Assembly: GCA_029884455.1 (NCBI GenBank)
Contig: JAOUHU010000009.1
Location: 1 to 64,000 of the forward strand
Direction of reading: 5' to 3'
Length of the DNA: 64,000 nucleotides
Source: Gammaproteobacteria bacterium
GTDB lineage: Bacteria > Pseudomonadota > Gammaproteobacteria > Steroidobacterales > Woeseiaceae
In this document: piece after piece, positions 27,328 through 38,555 of the stretch
Position numbering within the stretch: the first letter of the stretch is position 1
How the letters are laid out: each line of letters starts with the position of its first letter
Notes under the pieces: generated by a model
Told to the model about the DNA's origin: nothing
The model's database searches: none
The model's input: only the letters and a program-made list of their open reading frames with translations
Position numbers and translations under genes: made by a program

Positions 27328-28341
27328 TTGAAGACAGTAAACCAGCGACTCGCTGCAATGTCCGCACAGCTGCAAGCAACATTATGCGCTTGCGTGTTTA
27401 TCATCTTGTGCACGACAGCCGGCGCCGTAGGTACACCGGTTGGCACGGTGATTCAGAACACAGCGACTGTTACATTTGATCTTGCCGGCACTCCGGTCAC
27501 GCTGCAGTCGAACGTCGCCACGATTACCGTGGTCGAGCGCATCGACGTCATCGTGACGCGGCAAAGTCCGCAAATCCTGGTCGCGCCGGGTGATACCGGT
27601 CGCGCGATCCTGTTTACCGTGAGCAATACGGGCAATGGCAGTGAGGCTTTTGCACTGGCAATTGACAGCCTGATTGGCGGCGACGATTTCGATCCGGTCC
27701 CGGCTGTGCCGGCAATCTATTTCGACACCGACGCTAGCGGCGATTTCAATATTGGCGACGTGGCCTACAACCCGGGCGTAAATGATCCGGTGCTGGCGGC
27801 CGATGCATCCCAGAATTTCTTCATCGTCAATGACATTCCGGCGCTGGTCGTGAATAGCCAGATTGGCTTCAGCCAACTTACGGCGACTGCGCTGACCGGT
27901 TCGGGTGCACCCGGCACCGAATATCCTGGCCAGGGTGACGGCGGCGTTGATGCCGTCATAGGTACGACCGGCGGCGAGGACGCTGATATCGGAGAGTACC
28001 TGGTCTCGGATGTGGTCCTGAACGTCGTGAAATCGCAGCTCGTCAGTGACCCGTTTGGCGGTACACAGCCGGTTCCCGGCGCAACGATTACCTACACGGT
28101 TACGGTCGAGGTCACGTCGAGCGGCACAGCTACCGCGAGTGTCTTCAGTGACCTGATCCCGACCTACACAAGCTTCGTGCCGGCCAGCATCGCGCTGAAC
28201 GCGTTGGCGCTGACAGATGCCATCGACGCTGATGCAGGTGAGTACGACACGGCAGGTGCGCCACGCGTGGTGGTGCGCCTGGGCGACCTGACACAGGCGG
28301 ACGGCGTCCAGACCGTCGTCTTCCAGGTGACCATTGATTAG
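27328..28341 (+). CDS. Secreted DUF11-like repeat protein A
   Basis: TTG start preceded by GAGAGGAACAAATC; signal peptide; VIQNTATVTFDLAG..LQSNVATITVVERIDV; DUF11-like KSQLVSDPFGGTQPVPGATITYTVTVEV. Confidence 0.72.
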   Translation: MKTVNQRLAAMSAQLQATLCACVFIILCTTAGAVGTPVGTVIQNTATVTFDLAGTPVTLQSNVATITVVERIDVIVTRQSPQILVAPGDTGRAILFTVSNTGNGSEAFALAIDSLIGGDDFDPVPAVPAIYFDTDASGDFNIGDVAYNPGVNDPVLAADASQNFFIVNDIPALVVNSQIGFSQLTATALTGSGAPGTEYPGQGDGGVDAVIGTTGGEDADIGEYLVSDVVLNVVKSQLVSDPFGGTQPVPGATITYTVTVEVTSSGTATASVFSDLIPTYTSFVPASIALNALALTDAIDADAGEYDTAGAPRVVVRLGDLTQADGVQTVVFQVTID

Positions 28342-28381
28342 GGTAATTCCTGATGTAACGAGCGATGAAAAGGGGAACGCA

Positions 28382-28864
28382 ATGAAATACCTGATGAGCG
28401 CAACTTTAACCCTGCTACTGCTGAGTCTGCCTGTGGCAGCCCAGGAGCAGGGATCTTTGAACGTCATGACGACGGTGCAGAAAGAAGAAGTTTTCGTCAA
28501 TGACGCGGGCGAGAGCGAAACACGACTGGTACCGGCCAACACCGTGGTGCCGGGCGAAGCCGTTATCTACACGATCACATTTCAGAATGTGGGCGACGAA
28601 CCGGCCGGCAATGTCGTCATCACCAACCCGATTGCAGAGACACTGAGCTATGTAGACGGTTCTGCATTCGGCCCGGGCATGCAATTGCAGTTTTCGGTTG
28701 ATGGCGGGCAAAACTTTGCTGCCGCAAACGCCTTGACTGTCGAGGAAGACGGGACCGCGCGACCGGCCGGTCCTGCTGACTTCACTCACATTCGCTGGGT
28801 GATGCAAAACGAACTGGCAGTGAACGCAATGGCAACAGCGCGTTTCACCGCTGTATTGAAATAG
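28382..28864 (+). CDS. Small secreted DUF11-like protein B
   Basis: Signal peptide MKYLMSATLTLLLLSLPVAAQ; VPGEAVIYTITFQNVGDEPAGNVVITNPI. Confidence 0.72.
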   Translation: MKYLMSATLTLLLLSLPVAAQEQGSLNVMTTVQKEEVFVNDAGESETRLVPANTVVPGEAVIYTITFQNVGDEPAGNVVITNPIAETLSYVDGSAFGPGMQLQFSVDGGQNFAAANALTVEEDGTARPAGPADFTHIRWVMQNELAVNAMATARFTAVLK

Positions 28865-28886
28865 TTTTAACCACAAAGGGAGTACC

Positions 28887-30020
28887 GTGATGAAAGTAGC
28901 AATACACAGTCTCAGTCGGAGCTTGCGGCTGGGCATAACCGCCGGTGCCCTGTTGCTTGCGCAACAGGCGCTGGCATTGGGTACGGACGCGGGTGTGACG
29001 GTGTCGAACCAGGCAACTGTTGCCTACACCGTTGGTACCGCCGCACAGACGCCGATCGAGTCCAGCCCGACAGGCAACGCGACGCCGGGAGCAGGCGCTC
29101 CGACCACGTTCCTGGTTGACCGGCGTGTCGACTTCACGCTGGTCGAGACCAGCGGTGGTCCGACCACACCGGTCGCGCCGGGTGATGCCGATGTCATCGC
29201 CTCGTTCACGCTGACCAATAACGGCAATGCGATCATGGACTTTGATCTTGCGGTAGCCGACTTCGCAGGCGCTGTCTTTGGCAATGCAGACACGACCGAT
29301 CTCGGCAACTACCGGATTCGTGTCGCTAACGGCGATGGCGCTGGTGGCGTACCCGACCTGGGAACCGACCTGGATTTCGTCGACGAGCTGGCGGAGGACG
29401 CGGTGGTTGAGATTTACGTGTTCGCCGACGCGCCACTGACAGTAAGTAACGGTGACTACGCTAACATCCAGCTCACCGCAACGGCAGCCGACGATGCCGA
29501 CGCAGTCGCGACGCCCGGTACACTCGACGCCGTGCTGGCAGAAAGCCCCGGAGTCGACGATCCGGCAGTTATCGAAAGCGTGTTTGCCGATACTGACAAC
29601 AACGGATTCGAGCAGGCAGAAGACAGCTACGAAATTATTTCTGCCGCCCTCGAAATCACCAAAGTTGCAACCGTGTTTTCCGATCCATTCGGCTCCGGCA
29701 AAGCGCTGCCCGGTGCTGTTGTCGAATACATTGTTACCATCGACAACACCACCGGCGCGGCTGATGCAACCGGCATAACGCTGACCGATCTCATCCAGAT
29801 CGCGGACGTTGTGCTGCAAAACGGTGTGTATAACGCCGGCGCATCGAACATCTCGTTTAACGCTGGCGCTTCGTTCTGCAATGCCGACGATGCGGTCGAT
29901 ACGGACGCTGACGGTTGTTCCTATGACATCGGCACTGGCGCGCTAAGCATTACGGTTCCCGATGTCACAGCAGGGACGTCAACTACTGTCCGATTCCAGG
30001 TATTGATCCCGAATACCTAA
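28887..30020 (+). CDS. Secreted DUF11-like repeat protein C
   Basis: Signal peptide; VSNQATVAYTVG; ALEITKVATVFSDPFGSGKALPGAVVEYIVTIDN; paralogous to protein A. Confidence 0.75.
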   Translation: MMKVAIHSLSRSLRLGITAGALLLAQQALALGTDAGVTVSNQATVAYTVGTAAQTPIESSPTGNATPGAGAPTTFLVDRRVDFTLVETSGGPTTPVAPGDADVIASFTLTNNGNAIMDFDLAVADFAGAVFGNADTTDLGNYRIRVANGDGAGGVPDLGTDLDFVDELAEDAVVEIYVFADAPLTVSNGDYANIQLTATAADDADAVATPGTLDAVLAESPGVDDPAVIESVFADTDNNGFEQAEDSYEIISAALEITKVATVFSDPFGSGKALPGAVVEYIVTIDNTTGAADATGITLTDLIQIADVVLQNGVYNAGASNISFNAGASFCNADDAVDTDADGCSYDIGTGALSITVPDVTAGTSTTVRFQVLIPNT

Positions 30021-30043
30021 GTCGACAGCGATGACTGATCACG

Positions 30044-33000
30044 GTGCTTAACGGACCTCAGAAGTCCAACGGGCGACGGGCCACCCGCAAGGGTGGCCCT
30101 CGCTACGTTCTGGCGCGGCGATTTGTCGCGTGTCTCGGGGCCTTGCTGGTCACCGGGATTGCGTTCGCCAGTCCACCGGGGGCAGTCATTTCAAACCAGG
30201 CAGAGCTCGCTTATCAGCCGACGCCCGGGGTGAGCGTCACGGTCACCAGCAATGCGGTAACTGTCACCACGGCGGTCGTGCGAGCACCGTCGAGTGTGGA
30301 ATTCACGCGAGTGCTCGGCGCGGGCACCGGCAGCTACCAGGAAACGGTTGGGCCCGCGGCCTGCGAGCAGGGTGGGAGTTTCGTCTTGCTGGCCGATCCG
30401 GTGCTTATCGGTGGTGTTCTGATCGACCCGACGCAGCTGCACGAGGTCAGTGCCGCGGCCGCCTACACGTTGGCTGAGTCGGCCTTCATGCGCCTGGCGG
30501 ATGCAGACCAGAACCTGGACTTCCAGTTAATTGACTACGCCGTGGTCACCGTCAGCAATACGACCAGCGGCGATACCGAAACCATTCGCCTCAGCGAAAC
30601 CGGTCCCAACACCGGAGTATTCGCAGGATTTGTACCCCTGGCTGGCGGTACTGCAAGCAGCGGCGACTGCGCGCTGCAGGGCCAGTCCGGTTCGTCGATC
30701 GTGGTGCAATACGTCGACCCGGCCGATGGCGGGGATACTGCCAGCGATACGGCCTTGCTCGATCCGGTGCAGCGAGTTTTCGAATCCGTGTCAGGCACTG
30801 CAATCAGCAATGCCAGCATTGAACTGGTCTATGCCAGCAGCGGATTGCCCGCGATTGTCTACGGCAATGATGGCGTAAGCCAGTTTCCGTCAGTTATCAG
30901 CAGCGGTGGCACCGTGATGGACAGTGCAGGAACGTCGTACACGTTTGGTCCGGGTGAGTACCGCTTTCCGGTTGTTCCCGATGGCGACTATCGACTACTG
31001 GTGACGCCGCCGCCCGAATACACCGCACCATCCCTTGTATCGATCAGCGACCTGCAAAATCTGCCCGGGGCGCCTTACGCGCTGCAGCCGGGATCTTTTG
31101 GCAACGCCTTCAGCAAGTCAGGCGGCATTACATTTTCGCTCGACATTCCCGTCGATCCGCGCGAATCCGCGTTGTTCCTGCAGAAGGCAACGACGACCAC
31201 CGTCGCAGCGCCAGGTGATTTCGTGCGCTACGAGTTACAGCTTGAAAACAGTTCCACGGCCGGAACGTTCAGCGACGTGCAGATCGTCGACCAACTGCCA
31301 CCGGGCGTGCGATATGTTGCGGATTCAACCCGCATTGATGCACAGGCTGCACCCGACCCGGTACTGGGTGCGGATCTGCGCACGCTCGAATTCCGCATCG
31401 CGACTCTGGCTGTCGGGCAGCGTGTAACGATCACCTACGTGGTCGAAATTATCGGTGGCGAGCGCAACCAGGACCTGGTTAATCGTGCCACCGCCACGAC
31501 CAGCGCCGGGCTGGTCTCCAACGAGGCGAGCGCCACAATTCGCCTCACCGAGGACCTGTTCCGGAGCACTGGCACGATCATCGGCCGTGTACTGGAAGCG
31601 GGCTGCAGCCAGCAAACATTTTCCGAAGAACAGGGCGTAGCCAATATACGCGTTTACCTCGAGGATGGACGCTATGCCGTCAGCGATGCGGGAGGCCGCT
31701 TCCATTTCGAAGGCTTGGAGCCTGGAACCCACGTTGCACAACTCGATACCTTCACGGTACCCGAATACTTTGATGTCATCGGCTGTGACGATGCGCCGGC
31801 CTTCGCCGGCCGCGCCGATTCCCAGTTCGTCAAGCTTGCTCCGGGCAGCCTGCTGCGCGCCGATTTCTACCTGCGACGCAAACCACGGCCCGAAGGGCGC
31901 ATTGACCTCGAATTGCAGAGTTCCGGGACCGACAGTGCGGAACAGGTCGCCTACGAATTGACGCTGCGCGGCAAAGGCAACGTGGCGGTCGACAATATCA
32001 GGCTGATGTTCCTGCTGCCGGACGGAGTGCACTACCTGCCGGGCACGATGCGTATCGGCGATGCGCATGCCGGCGATCCGGTGATTCAGGACAGCATGCT
32101 GTCGATGCCGATTGCAGATCAGTTCGGCGACTGGCTGAGCACCGTCCGGTTTGTCGCCGCGATCGATGCTGATGTCACCGGCGAACATTCGACCAAAGCG
32201 CTGGCAAGATTCGATTCGCCGATTGCGGCAGATCAGCAGACGCCGGTCGCTGAAACAAAGATGGTTCGGGATGCCGCGGTGAGCAAGAATGAAGGCTACG
32301 TTCTGGACCTGAAGTTCGACGTTCTGTCGGCGAGCCTCTCCGCCGAGGACGAACTCAAGCTTGACCTGCTGATCGAGGACTGGCAGGGCGTCAGTGACAT
32401 TCGTATTGTCGCCACCGGGCATAGCGACAGCGCCAGGATCAGTGCACGAAACCAGCACCTGTTCGAAAACAATTACGTATTGTCAGAGGCGCGTGCCATG
32501 GCCGCGGCATTCTATGTCGCAGATGCGTTGCAGGTGCCCAGGGAAAATATCCAGGTGACCGGTCGTGGTGCTGACGAGCCGGTAGTCAGTAACGACACCG
32601 CCGCCGGTCGCCAGGCTAACCGGCGCGTGGAAATGGTGCTGTCGGGTTCGCGCCGCAGCAAACCGTCGTTCCTGCAGGTGACCCAGGAATCCAGCGGTAC
32701 CATGGTGACGCCGACGCTGGGGGCGATTCCTGGTGAGGAGACAGAGCGTAATCGCGCCAGGTCCGATGACGAACTGGATGCCGGAATGCCGGCGTCGCAA
32801 GTTGAGCCGGGTATCGAAACATTGCAGCCGGGCGTCGCATTGCTGCTGCCGCAGAGAGGTTTCCAGCCGGCTTTGCCGGTGACCAAGGTATCGGTGCAGC
32901 ATGAGCCGACCCAGAGCATCAAGATCTATCTCAATGACAGCCCGGTGAGCGAGCTGAACTTTGATACTACGGCAGTGAATGCTGCGAAAACCGTCGCCGT

Positions 33001-35905
33001 TTCCCGTTGGAAGGGTGTTGATCTCAAGGACGGCGACAACCAGATCCGTGTCATTGTTTCCAATGCCGATGGCAGCCGCGCTGCTGCCTTTACACGCAGT
33101 GTGTACTATTCCGGAGCACCGATCCGCGGTGAGTTTGTCGCCGGCCGGTCGAGCCTGGTCGCCGATGGCAAAACGCAGCCTGTTGTTGCTGTGCGCATGT
33201 TTGATCGCGCCGGCAAACCATCGCGTACCGGCACCATCGGTACTTATCGCGTCGATGCCCCGTATCGGTCGGCATGGGACGTGGACAACGAACGCAAGAA
33301 CAAGCTGGTCAGCATTGGTCCGCGCGAACCGAGTTATCGTGTCGGTGCTGACGGCATCGTGCTGATTGAACTCGAGCCAAGCACGCAGTCGGGCGAGGTA
33401 GTACTCAACTTCAAATTTGACCATGAACGCGAACAGCAGCTACGCGTGTGGCTGAAGCCCGCCGATCGCGAGTGGATCCTGGTCGGTTTCGCGGAAGGCA
33501 CGGCGGCCTACGACACCTTGTCGGACAACCTGTCAGCTGCCTTGGCCGCAGGTCATGAGGAAGGTTACGTCGACGAGGGGCGGGTAGCATTCTTTGCCAA
33601 GGGCAGCATCAAGGGCAAATACCTGATGACTATTGCCTACGATTCAGACCGCGAACGCAGCGAGACGCGCAACAGTTTTGACACGGTGGTCGATCCGAAC
33701 GCCAATTACCCGTTGTATGCGGACACCAGCGAACAGCGCTTCGAGGCGCCAAGCCAACGAAAGCTCTACGTCAAGCTCGAGCGCAGCCAGTTCTATGCAT
33801 TGTTCGGTGATTACGATACCGGCTTGTCGGTTACCGATCTGGCGCGCTACGAGCGGCGCTTCAATGGTTTCAAGAGTGAATACCGTGGTGACAACATCGG
33901 CTATACCGCGTTTGCTGCAGAAAGTAACCAGGGTTTTCATCGGGACGAGATTCGCGGCGATGGAACCTCAGGCCTGTACCGCCTGAGTGTTGCGCCGATC
34001 ATCGCCAACAGCGACAAGGTACGCCTCGAAGTACGCGACCGTTTTGACTCTGGCCAGGTGATCAGTACTACCAATCTGCATCGCTTCCTGGACTACAACC
34101 TTGATGCGCAGAACGGCAGCCTGTACTTCAAACGACCGGTGCCAAGCCGTGACCAGGATTTCAATCCGGTCTATATAATCGTCGAGTACGAGTCGGCATC
34201 CGACGCGGATCAAGACATTGTGGCCGGCGGTCGAGTATCGATCGGCAATGCCGTACGAACACTGGAAGCAGGTGTGACCTACGTCAGTGACGACACTGCT
34301 GGTGCCGAGGCGGACCTGAGCGGCGTCGATCTGCGCTGGCAGGTTAATCCGCAGGCGGAATTCAAAGCCGAACTGGCAAGTACCAGCTCGATCGTCGCGG
34401 GTGTGCCGCAAGACGGCACGGCGAAATCGCTCGAACTCGAGTACAACGGCGAGAAAGCGGACGTGCGCGCCTTTGTCCGCGAAGTCGAAAACGGTTTTGG
34501 ACTCGGCTATCAATCGGCCGCTGACCGTGGATTCCGCCGGCTCGGCGTCGAGGCGCGCGGCAAATTCAGCGAGCAATGGGCAGTCGAGGGCGAGGCGGGC
34601 TGGCAACAGAATCTGGAAACTGAAGACATTCGCGTACTTGCTATCGGGCGCGTGCGCTACGAACGCGACTCATTTAGTACCACGCTGGGCCTTACGCATG
34701 CTGAAGACGAGTTTGAAGACGGCGAGACGCGATTGAGCGACATTGCCGAACTTGGCGTGGCGCAGCGCATGTTCGACGATCGATTGACGCTTCGTGCCAG
34801 CGGCAGCTCGGCGATTTCCGGGGATGCCGAAAATACTGATTATCCAACGAGTTTCGTGCTGGGTGCGGATTACAAGCTGCTAAAGGATGTATCGCTGGTA
34901 GGCGAGTACGAAGATGCCAGTGGTGTTGGTCTGGACGCGACCATGACGCGAATTGGCATTCAGGCGACGCCGTGGAACCGCACGCAAGTGAATACGTTTG
35001 TTACCAACGAGGTGACCGAATTCGGGCCGCGCCTGTTTTCCAATGTCGGCCTGGTGCAGGGATTCCAGCTCAACGAACGCTGGTCGCTGGACTTTGGCGT
35101 TGACCAGAGCAATACCTTGCGAGATGCCGATGCCCGCCAGTTCGACCCGGATCGCGAGCTGGCCACGGGATCGAACCAGGAGGACTTCCTGGCAGCTTAT
35201 GTCGGTGCCATGTACAGCGCCGGGATGTGGAGCGCGAATTCGCGCTTCGAGCACCGCAATTCCGATCGAGAAGAGCGCAATACCTTGCTGGCAGGATGGT
35301 ATCGCGAGCCGGTCGCCGGTCATGGCATGTCAGCGGGCATGACCCTGCTGCAAAACGATACCATTGGCGGTGACGATATGACCTCAGTGGCGTTAAAGGG
35401 AGGCTGGGCCTATCGCAAGTCGGACAAGCGCTGGTCCTTCCTGAATCGCACCGACCTGATCTTCACTGATGCAACCCAGGGCGGCCAACAGTTGTTGTCC
35501 TGGCGCCTGATAAATAATTTCAATGCCAATCGGCGCCTCGGCGCCGCGGCCCAACTGTCGTTGCAATATGCATTCAAGTTTGTGCGCAGTGAATTCGACG
35601 GCGATGGCTACTCGGGGTTTACCGACCTGATCGGGGTCGATTGGCGCCGCAGCCTCAGCCAACGCTGGGATTTCGGCGTCAATTCCAGTATTTACCATGC
35701 CTACCAGTCGGGCGTTTTCGACTATGGTGCCGGCATGGATGTCGGCTTCCGCTTGCTGGACAATATGTGGCTTAGTGCGGGATACAATGTCAGCGGTTTT
35801 TACGATGCCGATTTTACCCAGGCACGTTACACGGCACAGGGACCGTTCCTGCGATTCTCAGTCAAGGCCGACCAGCACTTTCTGCAGAAAGTAACCGCCA
35901 GATAG
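30044..35905 (+). CDS. Giant (1953 aa) DUF11 / OmpA-C-like / outer-membrane beta-barrel protein
   Basis: Signal peptide; VISNQAELAYQP; DUF11-like LENSSTAGTFSDVQIVDQLPPGVRYV; SdrD-like GVANIRVYLEDGRYAVSDAGGRFHFEGLEPGTH; OmpA-like LIEDWQGVSDIRIVATGHSDSARIS..RGADEPVVSNDTAAGRQANRRVEMVL; long alternating beta-strand C-terminal region. Confidence 0.82.
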   Translation: MLNGPQKSNGRRATRKGGPRYVLARRFVACLGALLVTGIAFASPPGAVISNQAELAYQPTPGVSVTVTSNAVTVTTAVVRAPSSVEFTRVLGAGTGSYQETVGPAACEQGGSFVLLADPVLIGGVLIDPTQLHEVSAAAAYTLAESAFMRLADADQNLDFQLIDYAVVTVSNTTSGDTETIRLSETGPNTGVFAGFVPLAGGTASSGDCALQGQSGSSIVVQYVDPADGGDTASDTALLDPVQRVFESVSGTAISNASIELVYASSGLPAIVYGNDGVSQFPSVISSGGTVMDSAGTSYTFGPGEYRFPVVPDGDYRLLVTPPPEYTAPSLVSISDLQNLPGAPYALQPGSFGNAFSKSGGITFSLDIPVDPRESALFLQKATTTTVAAPGDFVRYELQLENSSTAGTFSDVQIVDQLPPGVRYVADSTRIDAQAAPDPVLGADLRTLEFRIATLAVGQRVTITYVVEIIGGERNQDLVNRATATTSAGLVSNEASATIRLTEDLFRSTGTIIGRVLEAGCSQQTFSEEQGVANIRVYLEDGRYAVSDAGGRFHFEGLEPGTHVAQLDTFTVPEYFDVIGCDDAPAFAGRADSQFVKLAPGSLLRADFYLRRKPRPEGRIDLELQSSGTDSAEQVAYELTLRGKGNVAVDNIRLMFLLPDGVHYLPGTMRIGDAHAGDPVIQDSMLSMPIADQFGDWLSTVRFVAAIDADVTGEHSTKALARFDSPIAADQQTPVAETKMVRDAAVSKNEGYVLDLKFDVLSASLSAEDELKLDLLIEDWQGVSDIRIVATGHSDSARISARNQHLFENNYVLSEARAMAAAFYVADALQVPRENIQVTGRGADEPVVSNDTAAGRQANRRVEMVLSGSRRSKPSFLQVTQESSGTMVTPTLGAIPGEETERNRARSDDELDAGMPASQVEPGIETLQPGVALLLPQRGFQPALPVTKVSVQHEPTQSIKIYLNDSPVSELNFDTTAVNAAKTVAVSRWKGVDLKDGDNQIRVIVSNADGSRAAAFTRSVYYSGAPIRGEFVAGRSSLVADGKTQPVVAVRMFDRAGKPSRTGTIGTYRVDAPYRSAWDVDNERKNKLVSIGPREPSYRVGADGIVLIELEPSTQSGEVVLNFKFDHEREQQLRVWLKPADREWILVGFAEGTAAYDTLSDNLSAALAAGHEEGYVDEGRVAFFAKGSIKGKYLMTIAYDSDRERSETRNSFDTVVDPNANYPLYADTSEQRFEAPSQRKLYVKLERSQFYALFGDYDTGLSVTDLARYERRFNGFKSEYRGDNIGYTAFAAESNQGFHRDEIRGDGTSGLYRLSVAPIIANSDKVRLEVRDRFDSGQVISTTNLHRFLDYNLDAQNGSLYFKRPVPSRDQDFNPVYIIVEYESASDADQDIVAGGRVSIGNAVRTLEAGVTYVSDDTAGAEADLSGVDLRWQVNPQAEFKAELASTSSIVAGVPQDGTAKSLELEYNGEKADVRAFVREVENGFGLGYQSAADRGFRRLGVEARGKFSEQWAVEGEAGWQQNLETEDIRVLAIGRVRYERDSFSTTLGLTHAEDEFEDGETRLSDIAELGVAQRMFDDRLTLRASGSSAISGDAENTDYPTSFVLGADYKLLKDVSLVGEYEDASGVGLDATMTRIGIQATPWNRTQVNTFVTNEVTEFGPRLFSNVGLVQGFQLNERWSLDFGVDQSNTLRDADARQFDPDRELATGSNQEDFLAAYVGAMYSAGMWSANSRFEHRNSDREERNTLLAGWYREPVAGHGMSAGMTLLQNDTIGGDDMTSVALKGGWAYRKSDKRWSFLNRTDLIFTDATQGGQQLLSWRLINNFNANRRLGAAAQLSLQYAFKFVRSEFDGDGYSGFTDLIGVDWRRSLSQRWDFGVNSSIYHAYQSGVFDYGAGMDVGFRLLDNMWLSAGYNVSGFYDADFTQARYTAQGPFLRFSVKADQHFLQKVTAR

Positions 35906-35943: not shown

Positions 35944-37863
35944 GTGATCTCGCTCGCTGATTTTTTTTCCATCGATAGTCCGTTGCAACAATTGCTGCCG
36001 GGGTTCCAGCTGCGCGCCGGGCAGGCCTGGATGGCCGAAGCAGTCGCCGATACCATTGCCAGCGGCAGCAAACTGGTGGTCGAAGCCGGCACCGGTACCG
36101 GCAAGACTTTCGCTTACCTGCTGCCGGCCTTGCAGAGCGGCAAGAAAACCATCATCTCGACCGGCACCAAGGCCTTGCAGGACCAGTTGTATCATCGCGA
36201 TTTGCCGCTGGTCGGCAAGGCGATCGGGCGGCCCGTCAGCACGGCGCTGCTCAAAGGCCGTGCCAACTACCTGTGCCTGCATCGACTCGACCAGCTTGCG
36301 GAGGTTGGCAGCACGCTGCGCGACGATCTGCGCGAGATTCGCGAATGGCGTTATCGAACCCGCAGCGGTGATCGCGCTGAACTCAGCGAGGTTGCAGAGG
36401 ACTCCGGCGTCTGGCCGCTGGTGACTTCGACGGTTGACAACTGCCTTGGCCAGAAATGCCCGGAGTACGCCAATTGCCATGTTGTGAAAGCACGTCGCGC
36501 TGCCCAGGAGGCCGATCTGGTCATCGTCAATCATCACCTCTTGCTTGCCGATCTCGCCATGAAGGAACACGGTTTCGTCGAGTTTCTGCCAGGTGCAGAG
36601 GCATTCATCCTCGATGAGGCACACCAGATTCCGGATCTTGCGGTGCAGTTTTTTGGTGTCAGCCTGGGCAGCCGCGAGCTGGAACGCATAGTCGAGGAAA
36701 TTCGTGCTGCGACGCTGCCGTTCCAGCAGACCGAGCTGCAGCGCCGCATTGACAAGTTGCAGCTAAGTATCCAGTCGCTGCGCGCGCACGCACCGCGCCA
36801 GGAGGGCAAGCACCAGCTGGCCGAAGTGCTGCCGGACATTCGCGACGACTTGCAGGCACTGCAATTGGCACTGGGCGACATGCAACGGGCGCTTGCAGAG
36901 TTCGCGGATTCTGGTGTCGATTTGCAGCAATTGCATGTACAGGTCATGACAGCGCTCGAGCGCCTGGCATTGCTGGTAAATGATGAAACGTGGGATGGAC
37001 TGCGCTGGCTGGAAGTCAATCCGCGCTCATTGCGGCTGCACCTGACGCCCCTCGATGTCTCGGCGACACTGCACGGCATGTTCAACAATCCGGGCCAGGC
37101 CTGGATATTCACTTCGGCAACGCTGGCCGTCGCCGATGATTTTTCGCACTTCCTCGCGCGCGCGGGTCTTGTCGGGGTCACCGCGCTGTCATTCCCGAGT
37201 CCATATGAGGTACACGAGAATGGGTTGGTGTATCTGCCGCACCATCTTCCGGAACCGTCAAACGCATTGCATACCGCCGCCATGCTTGAGTCGGTGGTTC
37301 CGTTACTGGACCTGACCAGTGGCGGCGTGTTCTGCCTGTTTACCAGCCACCGTGCCTTGAACAATGCCCGGCAGTGGTTCAAGACTCACAAAAAGGTCCT
37401 GGCTGGCCGCAAGCTGCTGGTGCAGGGCAGTGTGCCGCGCGATGATCTGTTGCGACGTTTCCGTGACGCAGGAAATGCGGTACTGCTTGGCACCGGCAGC
37501 TTTTGGGAAGGGGTCGATGTGCGCGGCCAGGCGCTGACGATTGTGGCGATCGATAAGTTGCCGTTTGCATCGCCCGCGGATCCGTTGCTGCTGGCGCGGC
37601 TTGAATACATCCGGCGGCAGGGCGGTAACGGATTCACCGAACACCAACTGCCACAGGCGGTGCTGGCGATGAAGCAGGGCGCAGGCCGATTGCTGCGTGA
37701 CCAGGATGATTATGGCGTCATTGTGCTATGCGACCCGCGCATCATGAGCAAGAGCTATGGCGGGATGTTTCTCAACAGCCTGCAGCCGATGCCATGCACC
37801 TCGTCGCTGGACGATGTTGCACGATTCTTCGCGCGGCACGAGAACCGGCGGGCCAGCGCATGA
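35944..37863 (+). CDS. DinG/YoaA-family ATP-dependent helicase
   Basis: Walker A VEAGTGTGKTFAYLLPAL, DEAH (LDEAHQIPD), GTGSFWEGVDVRG, GAGRLLRD. Confidence 0.93.
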   Translation: MISLADFFSIDSPLQQLLPGFQLRAGQAWMAEAVADTIASGSKLVVEAGTGTGKTFAYLLPALQSGKKTIISTGTKALQDQLYHRDLPLVGKAIGRPVSTALLKGRANYLCLHRLDQLAEVGSTLRDDLREIREWRYRTRSGDRAELSEVAEDSGVWPLVTSTVDNCLGQKCPEYANCHVVKARRAAQEADLVIVNHHLLLADLAMKEHGFVEFLPGAEAFILDEAHQIPDLAVQFFGVSLGSRELERIVEEIRAATLPFQQTELQRRIDKLQLSIQSLRAHAPRQEGKHQLAEVLPDIRDDLQALQLALGDMQRALAEFADSGVDLQQLHVQVMTALERLALLVNDETWDGLRWLEVNPRSLRLHLTPLDVSATLHGMFNNPGQAWIFTSATLAVADDFSHFLARAGLVGVTALSFPSPYEVHENGLVYLPHHLPEPSNALHTAAMLESVVPLLDLTSGGVFCLFTSHRALNNARQWFKTHKKVLAGRKLLVQGSVPRDDLLRRFRDAGNAVLLGTGSFWEGVDVRGQALTIVAIDKLPFASPADPLLLARLEYIRRQGGNGFTEHQLPQAVLAMKQGAGRLLRDQDDYGVIVLCDPRIMSKSYGGMFLNSLQPMPCTSSLDDVARFFARHENRRASA

Positions 37864-38555
37864 AAATACTGGCGCTGGATACGTCATCGATTGCATGCAG
37901 CGTTGCGCTGCAGATCGGCGACCGCAAGGCTGCGCGACATACTGAGCACGAGCGCGAACACACGCGATTGCTGCTGCCGATGATTCGTGCGGTACTCGAT
38001 GAATTGGCTGTTGAGCTCAAGGATCTTGATGCAATTGCGCTGGGTAATGGCCCGGGCTCGTTTATTGGCATGCGCATCGGCGCATCCGTAGCACAGGGCC
38101 TGGCGCATGCTGCGAACCTCCCGATTGTGCCGGTTTCATCATTGGCCGCCGTCGCGAGCGAGGTATTTGCCGAACAGCATGCTGCTGAAGTCGTCGTGAC
38201 CCAGGACGCACACATGAATGAGGTGTATCTCGGTTATTTTTCGCGGGATGCGGCCGGCCTGCCGCTGGCACTGATAACAGAGCGACTGCACCGGCACGAG
38301 GCAATTGCAGAGCTTGCCGCGGCGCGCAGCGGCGCGCGCCTCGCGGCCGGCGCTGGCTGGGCCTGCTATCCGGCACTGCTGGCGGCAAACCGCCAGTATT
38401 TCGATGGCACCAGCAAGGTGTTGTACCCGAGTGCCACCGCGGTGTTGCGCATCGCTGTGCAGGCCCTGGCTAACGGTGCTGGCATTGCACCGACTGAGGT
38501 GGTTCCTGCCTATTTGCGGCATGTTGTGGCGGCAGTGCCGGCGGGGAGTTCGTAA
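37860..38555 (+). CDS. tsaB: tRNA t6A synthesis protein TsaB
   Basis: MKILALDTSSIACSVAL..AIALGNGPGSFIGMRIGASVAQGLA; ATGA overlap with upstream helicase. Confidence 0.94.
   Translation: MKILALDTSSIACSVALQIGDRKAARHTEHEREHTRLLLPMIRAVLDELAVELKDLDAIALGNGPGSFIGMRIGASVAQGLAHAANLPIVPVSSLAAVASEVFAEQHAAEVVVTQDAHMNEVYLGYFSRDAAGLPLALITERLHRHEAIAELAAARSGARLAAGAGWACYPALLAANRQYFDGTSKVLYPSATAVLRIAVQALANGAGIAPTEVVPAYLRHVVAAVPAGSS

Follow-up and report, generated by a model that had tools for sequence, protein, structure and literature searches.

The locus raised the question of what four adjacent genes for secreted proteins, three small and one giant, might build together. The window (the whole stretch of DNA analysed, 64,000 nucleotides) comes from a MAG of 3.33 Mb in 151 contigs, and all features of the cassette given below lie on its + strand. 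The four genes are consecutive and are separated by gaps of 40, 22 and 23 nt. They are G1 (27328..28341, 337 aa), G2 (28382..28864, 160 aa), G3 (28887..30020, or from ATG 28890; 377 aa) and G4 (30044..35905, 1953 aa). The start codon of G1 is TTG, and this start was accepted because the orthologues, which were found in all Woeseiaceae cassettes examined, likewise start with TTG. A signal peptide had been proposed for each of the four proteins, and a Sec-type N-terminus was present in all of them, judged by eye. Promoter and terminator scans of the cassette gave nothing better than shuffled sequences, so that transcription as an operon is argued from spacing and conservation only. On the reading developed here, which is considered probable, the products of the cassette would assemble into a surface fibre, with split DUF11 domains completed by donor hairpins and an outer-membrane protein serving as the anchor.

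The Pfam DUF11 profile (cut-off 24.6 bits) recognised G2 (27.6 bits) and G4 (35.9 bits) above its cut-off; G3 (19.6 bits) was recognised weakly and the full G1 protein scored 17.9 bits, both below it. G1 matched NCBIfam B_ant_repeat at 33.1 bits (cut-off 24). Two sets of shared motifs had been reported by the first-pass annotation and were found as described: VIQNTATVTF / VSNQATVAY / VISNQAELAY at the N-termini of G1, G3 and G4, and SDPFG..(x)PGAxxxYxVT common to G1 and G3. The point missed there is that the shared motifs appear to represent a single DUF11 domain split into two parts. In complete DUF11 repeats, as found in natural multi-DUF11 proteins, strand E ('LapGasatltytVtv') runs directly into the F-G hairpin 'GttltNtAtV...SNtAsAtV'. 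The C-termini of the small cassette proteins end at strand E, with 'QTVVFQVTID' in G1, 'ATARFTAVLK' in G2 and 'TVRFQVLIPNT' in G3. Read against the complete repeats, G1, G2 and G3 would each end one beta-hairpin (strands F-G) short of a complete DUF11 domain, and the F-G hairpin absent from these acceptors would be the motif with which mature G1, G3 and G4 begin.

The putative donor hairpins are VGTPVGTVIQNTATVTFDLAGTPVTLQSNVATITVVER in G1 (27427..27540), LGTDAGVTVSNQATVAY...FLVDRRVDF in G3 (28977..29135) and SPPGAVISNQAELAY...SNAVTVTTAVVR in G4 (30170..30283). G1 continues from its hairpin through a complete middle Ig-like domain to a C-terminal acceptor at 27991..28338, a DUF11 without its last two strands that stops at ...QTVVFQVTID. 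G3 is laid out similarly, with hairpin, middle domain and C-terminal acceptor (29625..30017). G2 consists of a single acceptor DUF11 (strands A-E) and carries no donor hairpin. A conserved IYFDTDASGDFNIGD in the middle domain of G1 (window positions approximately 27616-27660) resembles a calcium-binding DxDxSGD loop.

The correspondence between the two halves was observed across orthologues. The hairpin motif occurred in 89-100% of G1 and G3 orthologues; among 742 background ORFs it was present in 3.4%, and the 8% seen in G2 orthologues is near that background. The C-terminal strand motif was present in 88-100% of G1-G3 orthologues and in 6.2% of background ORFs. One G3 gene (L044:8566-9588) looks frameshifted; the reading frame no longer includes its C-terminal acceptor, and another piece, of 133 aa, also matches G3.

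Completion of the acceptors was assessed with two kinds of profile. With Pfam DUF11, the C-terminal domain of G1 alone was matched over profile positions 11-73 of 114 (22.0 bits); with its own hairpin appended the match covered 11-113 (25.5 bits), and with a shuffled hairpin 11-90 (19.5 bits). Addition of a hairpin to G2 extended the DUF11 match from 8-57 to 8-113 and the match to the related DUF7619 from 16-50 to 16-122 (24.5 to 36.6 bits). Shuffled hairpins did not restore coverage of either profile. The joining of G3 and the G4 hairpin gave no gain on the Pfam profiles. The training set of the HMM used in the second test consisted of 49 complete internal DUF11 repeats and nothing else; each combination comprised 22-34 cases. 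Hairpins from the same genome added 5.4-7.5 bits on average, with 64-88% of cases gaining more than 2 bits, whereas shuffled hairpins or unrelated segments added 0-1.1 bits, with 12-24% gaining more than 2 bits. The matched end moved from 61-85 to 101-123 of 128 positions (medians 110-123 for most combinations). Gains per protein were modest, and some proteins showed none, but the pattern was consistent over all families. An HMM built from the giant's own internal DUF11 only was too narrow to decide, especially for G2, and was superseded by the 49-repeat HMM.

Homologues of the giant were collected with its barrel region as query. Within the family they occurred in 35 of 61 genomes, within the class in 52 of 369 at E<=1e-10 and within a phylum sample in 32 of 399 at E<=1e-80, and one Desulfobacteraceae contig was also found, counts that include relatives sharing only a module of approximately 300 residues. 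The neighbourhood was then scored for the 47 giant homologues whose available upstream sequence was 3.5 kb or longer. In 46 of them a G2-type gene lay directly upstream on the same strand, together with one or more genes of G1/G3 type, and 36 of these 46 had two or more of the latter. In the one remaining case (L110) the homologue is 3728 aa long and matches more weakly. Giant homologues thus do not generally occur without small partners, a situation that the first-pass annotation had named as refuting its proposal, and the cassette was found across several proteobacterial classes. The order G1-G2-G3-G4 was constant in every Woeseiaceae homologue whose contig extends far enough and recurred in a family of another class (f213); in other families one to three donor/acceptor genes stand between G2 and the giant.

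The first-pass annotation had spoken of three small partners of the giant. Their linkage to it stands; they are not equivalent. G2 has no hairpin, and outside some families G1 can be missing, its place being taken by lectin-like genes or by other donor/acceptor genes. In most Woeseiaceae, genes for a DinG-like helicase and a TsaB-like protein (window 35944-38555) lie 3' of the cassette. The flanking genes vary in other families while the cassette itself stays.

Acceptor ends without hairpins were also found outside the core genes. In other families, large proteins adjoining the cassette have the truncated acceptor end and no hairpin; among these acceptor-only accessory proteins, two carry an H-type lectin domain, one carries five fn3 domains and one a P-domain. 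At one locus (L117:12022-14960, minus strand) two tandem H-type lectin proteins of approximately 490 aa with acceptor C-termini lie directly downstream of the giant homologue. A search of the window's own genome with the acceptor-domain profile returned, beyond the cassette, two unlinked secreted acceptor-only proteins of 584 aa (L160:4492-6246, G000:C147) and 338 aa (L161:4642-5658, minus strand, G000:C130), which are predicted to be alternative tip proteins. The gene for the 338-aa protein adjoins a dCache/HAMP/GGDEF/EAL gene.

With acceptors that end before strands F-G and N-termini that match the F-G hairpin, each subunit would complete the domain of the preceding one. Assembly would be head to tail, the N-terminal hairpin of each subunit supplying strands F-G to the C-terminal DUF11 of the subunit before it. 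The parts fall into acceptor-only, donor-plus-acceptor and donor-only proteins, matching the needs of a tip, a shaft and a base. G2 and the lectin-type accessory proteins, which can only accept, would form the tip. The shaft would be made of G1 and G3, each of them both donor and acceptor, with G3 possibly a base subunit, and G4, which only donates, would cap the fibre at its base and anchor it through its C-terminal outer-membrane barrel and OmpA domain. From these correspondences we infer polymerisation, covalent bonding, a surface location and adhesion.

In G1 and G3 the hairpin and the truncated domain are in one chain, and the self-join of the G1 C-terminal domain with the G1 N-terminal hairpin restored the profile as well as heterologous joins did. 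G1 and G3 could thus be circularly permuted monomers that close on themselves and act as ordinary secreted surface proteins, with G4 an independent porin-like anchor; FimA-type pilins, which can self-complement too, offer a precedent. Such closure is nevertheless judged unlikely. A truncated domain without a hairpin is found in G2, in the lectin-type accessory proteins and in both unlinked proteins of the same genome, and G4 has a hairpin while the DUF11 inside it is complete, so these proteins need partners in trans. The strict linkage of all parts in 46 of 47 loci also argues for a joint structure.

The predicted anchor, G4, starts with the donor hairpin. Ig-like domains follow, one of them a complete DUF11, and after these come an OmpA domain, a further Ig-like region, a module of approximately 300 aa and a barrel-like end. 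The domain content first assigned to it was found, at differing strength. The complete DUF11 (residues 379-487, 31178..31504; Pfam E 1.1e-8, profile positions 4-99 of 114) and the OmpA-like peptidoglycan-binding domain (residues 758-860, 32315..32623; Pfam E 1.3e-9) both scored above the Pfam cut-off. The SdrD/carboxypeptidase-regulatory-like domain fared less well, the CarboxypepD_reg and SdrD_B matches at approximately residues 528-567 lying below cut-off. For the beta-rich C-terminus, matches to beta-barrel families were weak but were seen in 11 of 18 homologues. In the OmpA domain the GHxD and LSxxRA motifs are kept; across 37 aligned giants the peptidoglycan-binding Asp of GHxD was retained in 30 and the Arg of LSxxRA in 32. 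The OmpA region is missing or short in several cassette-bearing homologues (L058, L091, L105). Taken with the conserved cassette, a peptidoglycan-binding type of OmpA domain and a barrel-like C-terminus give good support to the earlier proposal of a dedicated multi-protein envelope structure around the giant.

The approximately 300-aa module (33455..34366) has no Pfam family and is common to a paralogue in the same genome and to relatives of approximately 1700 aa, which are frequent in the class. The paralogue belongs to a pair (G000:C138, L009:4475-16242, minus strand) in which a 2207-aa multi-DUF11 protein overlaps by 4 nt with a 1715-aa protein that contains several OmpA-like repeats and the module; a proline-rich TonB-like gene lies upstream of the pair.

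The barrel-like region proper (33566..35902) ends in ...GPFLRFSVKADQHFLQKVTAR, has amphipathic strands and gives weak matches to OMP_b-brl and related Pfam families in homologues. A crude, uncalibrated count found such strands to be dense in the G4 C-terminus, which suggests a large barrel. AlphaFold2 models were too low in confidence to interpret, with mean pLDDT of 34.5 for the G4 C-terminus (alignment of 3 sequences) and 33.9 for G1 (alignment of 2 sequences). An identity of G4 as an usher (PF00577) was considered and rejected: no Pfam usher match was obtained, and hhalign against six E. coli K-12 ushers gave a probability of 0.4%. Profile comparison detected no relationship of the barrel to LptD or FhuA, and sequence searches of the PDB with the barrel region, the barrel profile and the internal DUF11 returned no match.

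A large barrel strictly linked to small secreted proteins would also fit a translocator and its substrates. On such a reading the G4 barrel would export the three DUF11 proteins, the C-terminal FxVxI-stop strand would be the export signal, and the products would be shed or displayed and form no polymer; all the small and accessory proteins have this strand motif as their terminus (88-100%, with 6.2% in background ORFs, as above). However, the motif is simply DUF11 strand E, which is also found inside complete repeats, an export signal leaves the matching F-G hairpin at the mature N-termini unexplained, and homology to ushers, LptD or FhuA was not found. This is accordingly rated as distinctly unlikely, and the fibre remains preferred.

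Along the chain of G4, the OmpA domain follows the donor hairpin and precedes the barrel-like end. With this order, the outer membrane should not separate the hairpin from the peptidoglycan-binding domain. For the proposed fibre, this arrangement would suit assembly in the periplasm and export through the barrel. The same placement of an OmpA domain with conserved peptidoglycan-binding residues, with docking that could be periplasmic, would suit a scaffold, in the periplasm or associated with the outer membrane, that ties this membrane to the peptidoglycan and forms no surface fibre, but this is very improbable given that the acceptor-only lectin, fn3 and P-domain partners suit an extracellular tip and that homologues with an absent or short OmpA region keep the cassette.

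The split domain may also carry a covalent lock. A 2025 survey that included a crystal structure renamed DUF11 as CLIPPER and reported that the domain can form an isopeptide bond within one chain, the triad in 9IFR being Lys715-Asp748-Asn806 (PMC12617251). By offset (+33, +91) these residues correspond to the strand-A Lys, the Asp of 'tDtlP' and the Asn of 'tltNtAtV'. The complete internal DUF11 of G4 has the triad intact in one chain (Lys381/Asp416/Asn480). In the split domains the residues are divided. The acceptors hold Lys235 (28030-28032) and Asp275 (28150-28152) in G1 and Lys258 (29661-29663) and Asp300 (29787-29789) in G3, and the hairpins hold Asn44 of G1 (codon 27457-27459), Asn40 of G3 (29007-29009) and Asn51 of G4 (30194-30196); residues of G3 are numbered from ATG 28890. 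Both Lys and Asp were kept in 28 of 28 G1 orthologues and in 33 of 34 G3 orthologues, the exception being the frameshifted gene, and among the hairpins found the Asn was present in 23 of 25 for G1, 33 of 33 for G3 and 29 of 31 for G4. Since the acceptor supplies Lys and Asp and the donor hairpin supplies Asn, the cross-link should join subunits. Docking would trigger an autocatalytic Lys-Asn bond between them, like a natural SpyTag/SpyCatcher; the chances that the fibre is covalently linked in this way are put at about even.

G2 departs from this pattern. In the G2 of the window the catalytic Asp is replaced by Asn, and its orthologues have Asn at the catalytic Asp position in 34 of 37 and Lys in only 25 of 37, so no covalent bond is expected at G2. 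The replacement is conserved and is apparently a deliberate loss of cross-linking. G2 should then dock without a cross-link and could serve as a detachable tip, as a cap or, by covering donor hairpins, as a chaperone.

Several known systems resemble parts of the predicted fibre, the nearest in mechanism being chaperone-usher pili, archaeal threads and F-ENA fibres. In chaperone-usher (type 1/P) pili, incomplete Ig-like subunits are completed by the N-terminal extension of the next subunit, as is proposed here from strong sequence correspondence, and both would have an acceptor-only tip (the tip adhesin of pili) and an outer-membrane barrel protein at the base. The cassette differs in its domain family (DUF11 E-set), in donating a two-strand hairpin where pili donate one strand, and in the absence of a chaperone gene, since none of the four cassette genes matched a chaperone family in Pfam, including PapD-like periplasmic chaperones. 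Its barrel-like region has no detectable usher homology, its base protein itself includes both a donor hairpin and an OmpA domain, and covalent links are predicted. Sortase-assembled pili have LPXTG signals and a pilus sortase gene, whereas no sortase gene and no LPXTG-type C-terminus were found among the cassette genes.

The archaeal threads of Saci_0406 (PMC9715654) share head-to-tail donor-strand complementation and a proposed intersubunit isopeptide bond. There the bond links the N-terminal amine to Asn57 two subunits along, while the cassette would place a Lys-Asn bond inside the completed domain; the threads are archaeal and, unlike the predicted fibre, have no outer-membrane anchor. The DUF11/CLIPPER fibrillar adhesins (PMC12617251, 9IFR) share the domain family and the Lys-Asp-Asn triad, but their domain is complete in one chain with an intramolecular bond, whereas in the cassette two subunits would each contribute a part of it. 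The F-ENA fibres of endospores (PMC11952670) are likewise modular, with N-terminal hook docking and dedicated anchor and tip proteins; some of the anchors contain DUF11, there only as a spacer, and the subunits differ in being trimeric DUF4183 proteins on Gram-positive spores. SpyTag/SpyCatcher-type pairs are split Ig-like isopeptide domains which, like the cassette domains, should react on docking, but they were engineered from intact domains; the split in the cassette is natural and repeated along the predicted polymer.

By mechanism the cassette would specify a new kind of donor-strand-complemented fibre, with components apparently unrelated to known ones. No description of the system was found in open-access full texts, and an account in a subscription journal or preprint is possible. 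The broadest form of the proposal, a widespread and undescribed class of Gram-negative fibre held by DUF11 strand swapping and spontaneous Lys-Asn locking, with no sortase or known chaperone-usher machinery and with the giant supplying the last hairpin, is put forward tentatively, at slightly less than an even chance. If true, a fibre system would be spread over several classes of Proteobacteria and one Desulfobacteraceae genome, and a DUF11 arrangement now annotated merely as a 'domain of unknown function' would gain a function. Natural covalent polymerisation without a sortase would be predicted, and the cassettes would offer new split-domain pairs for protein ligation.
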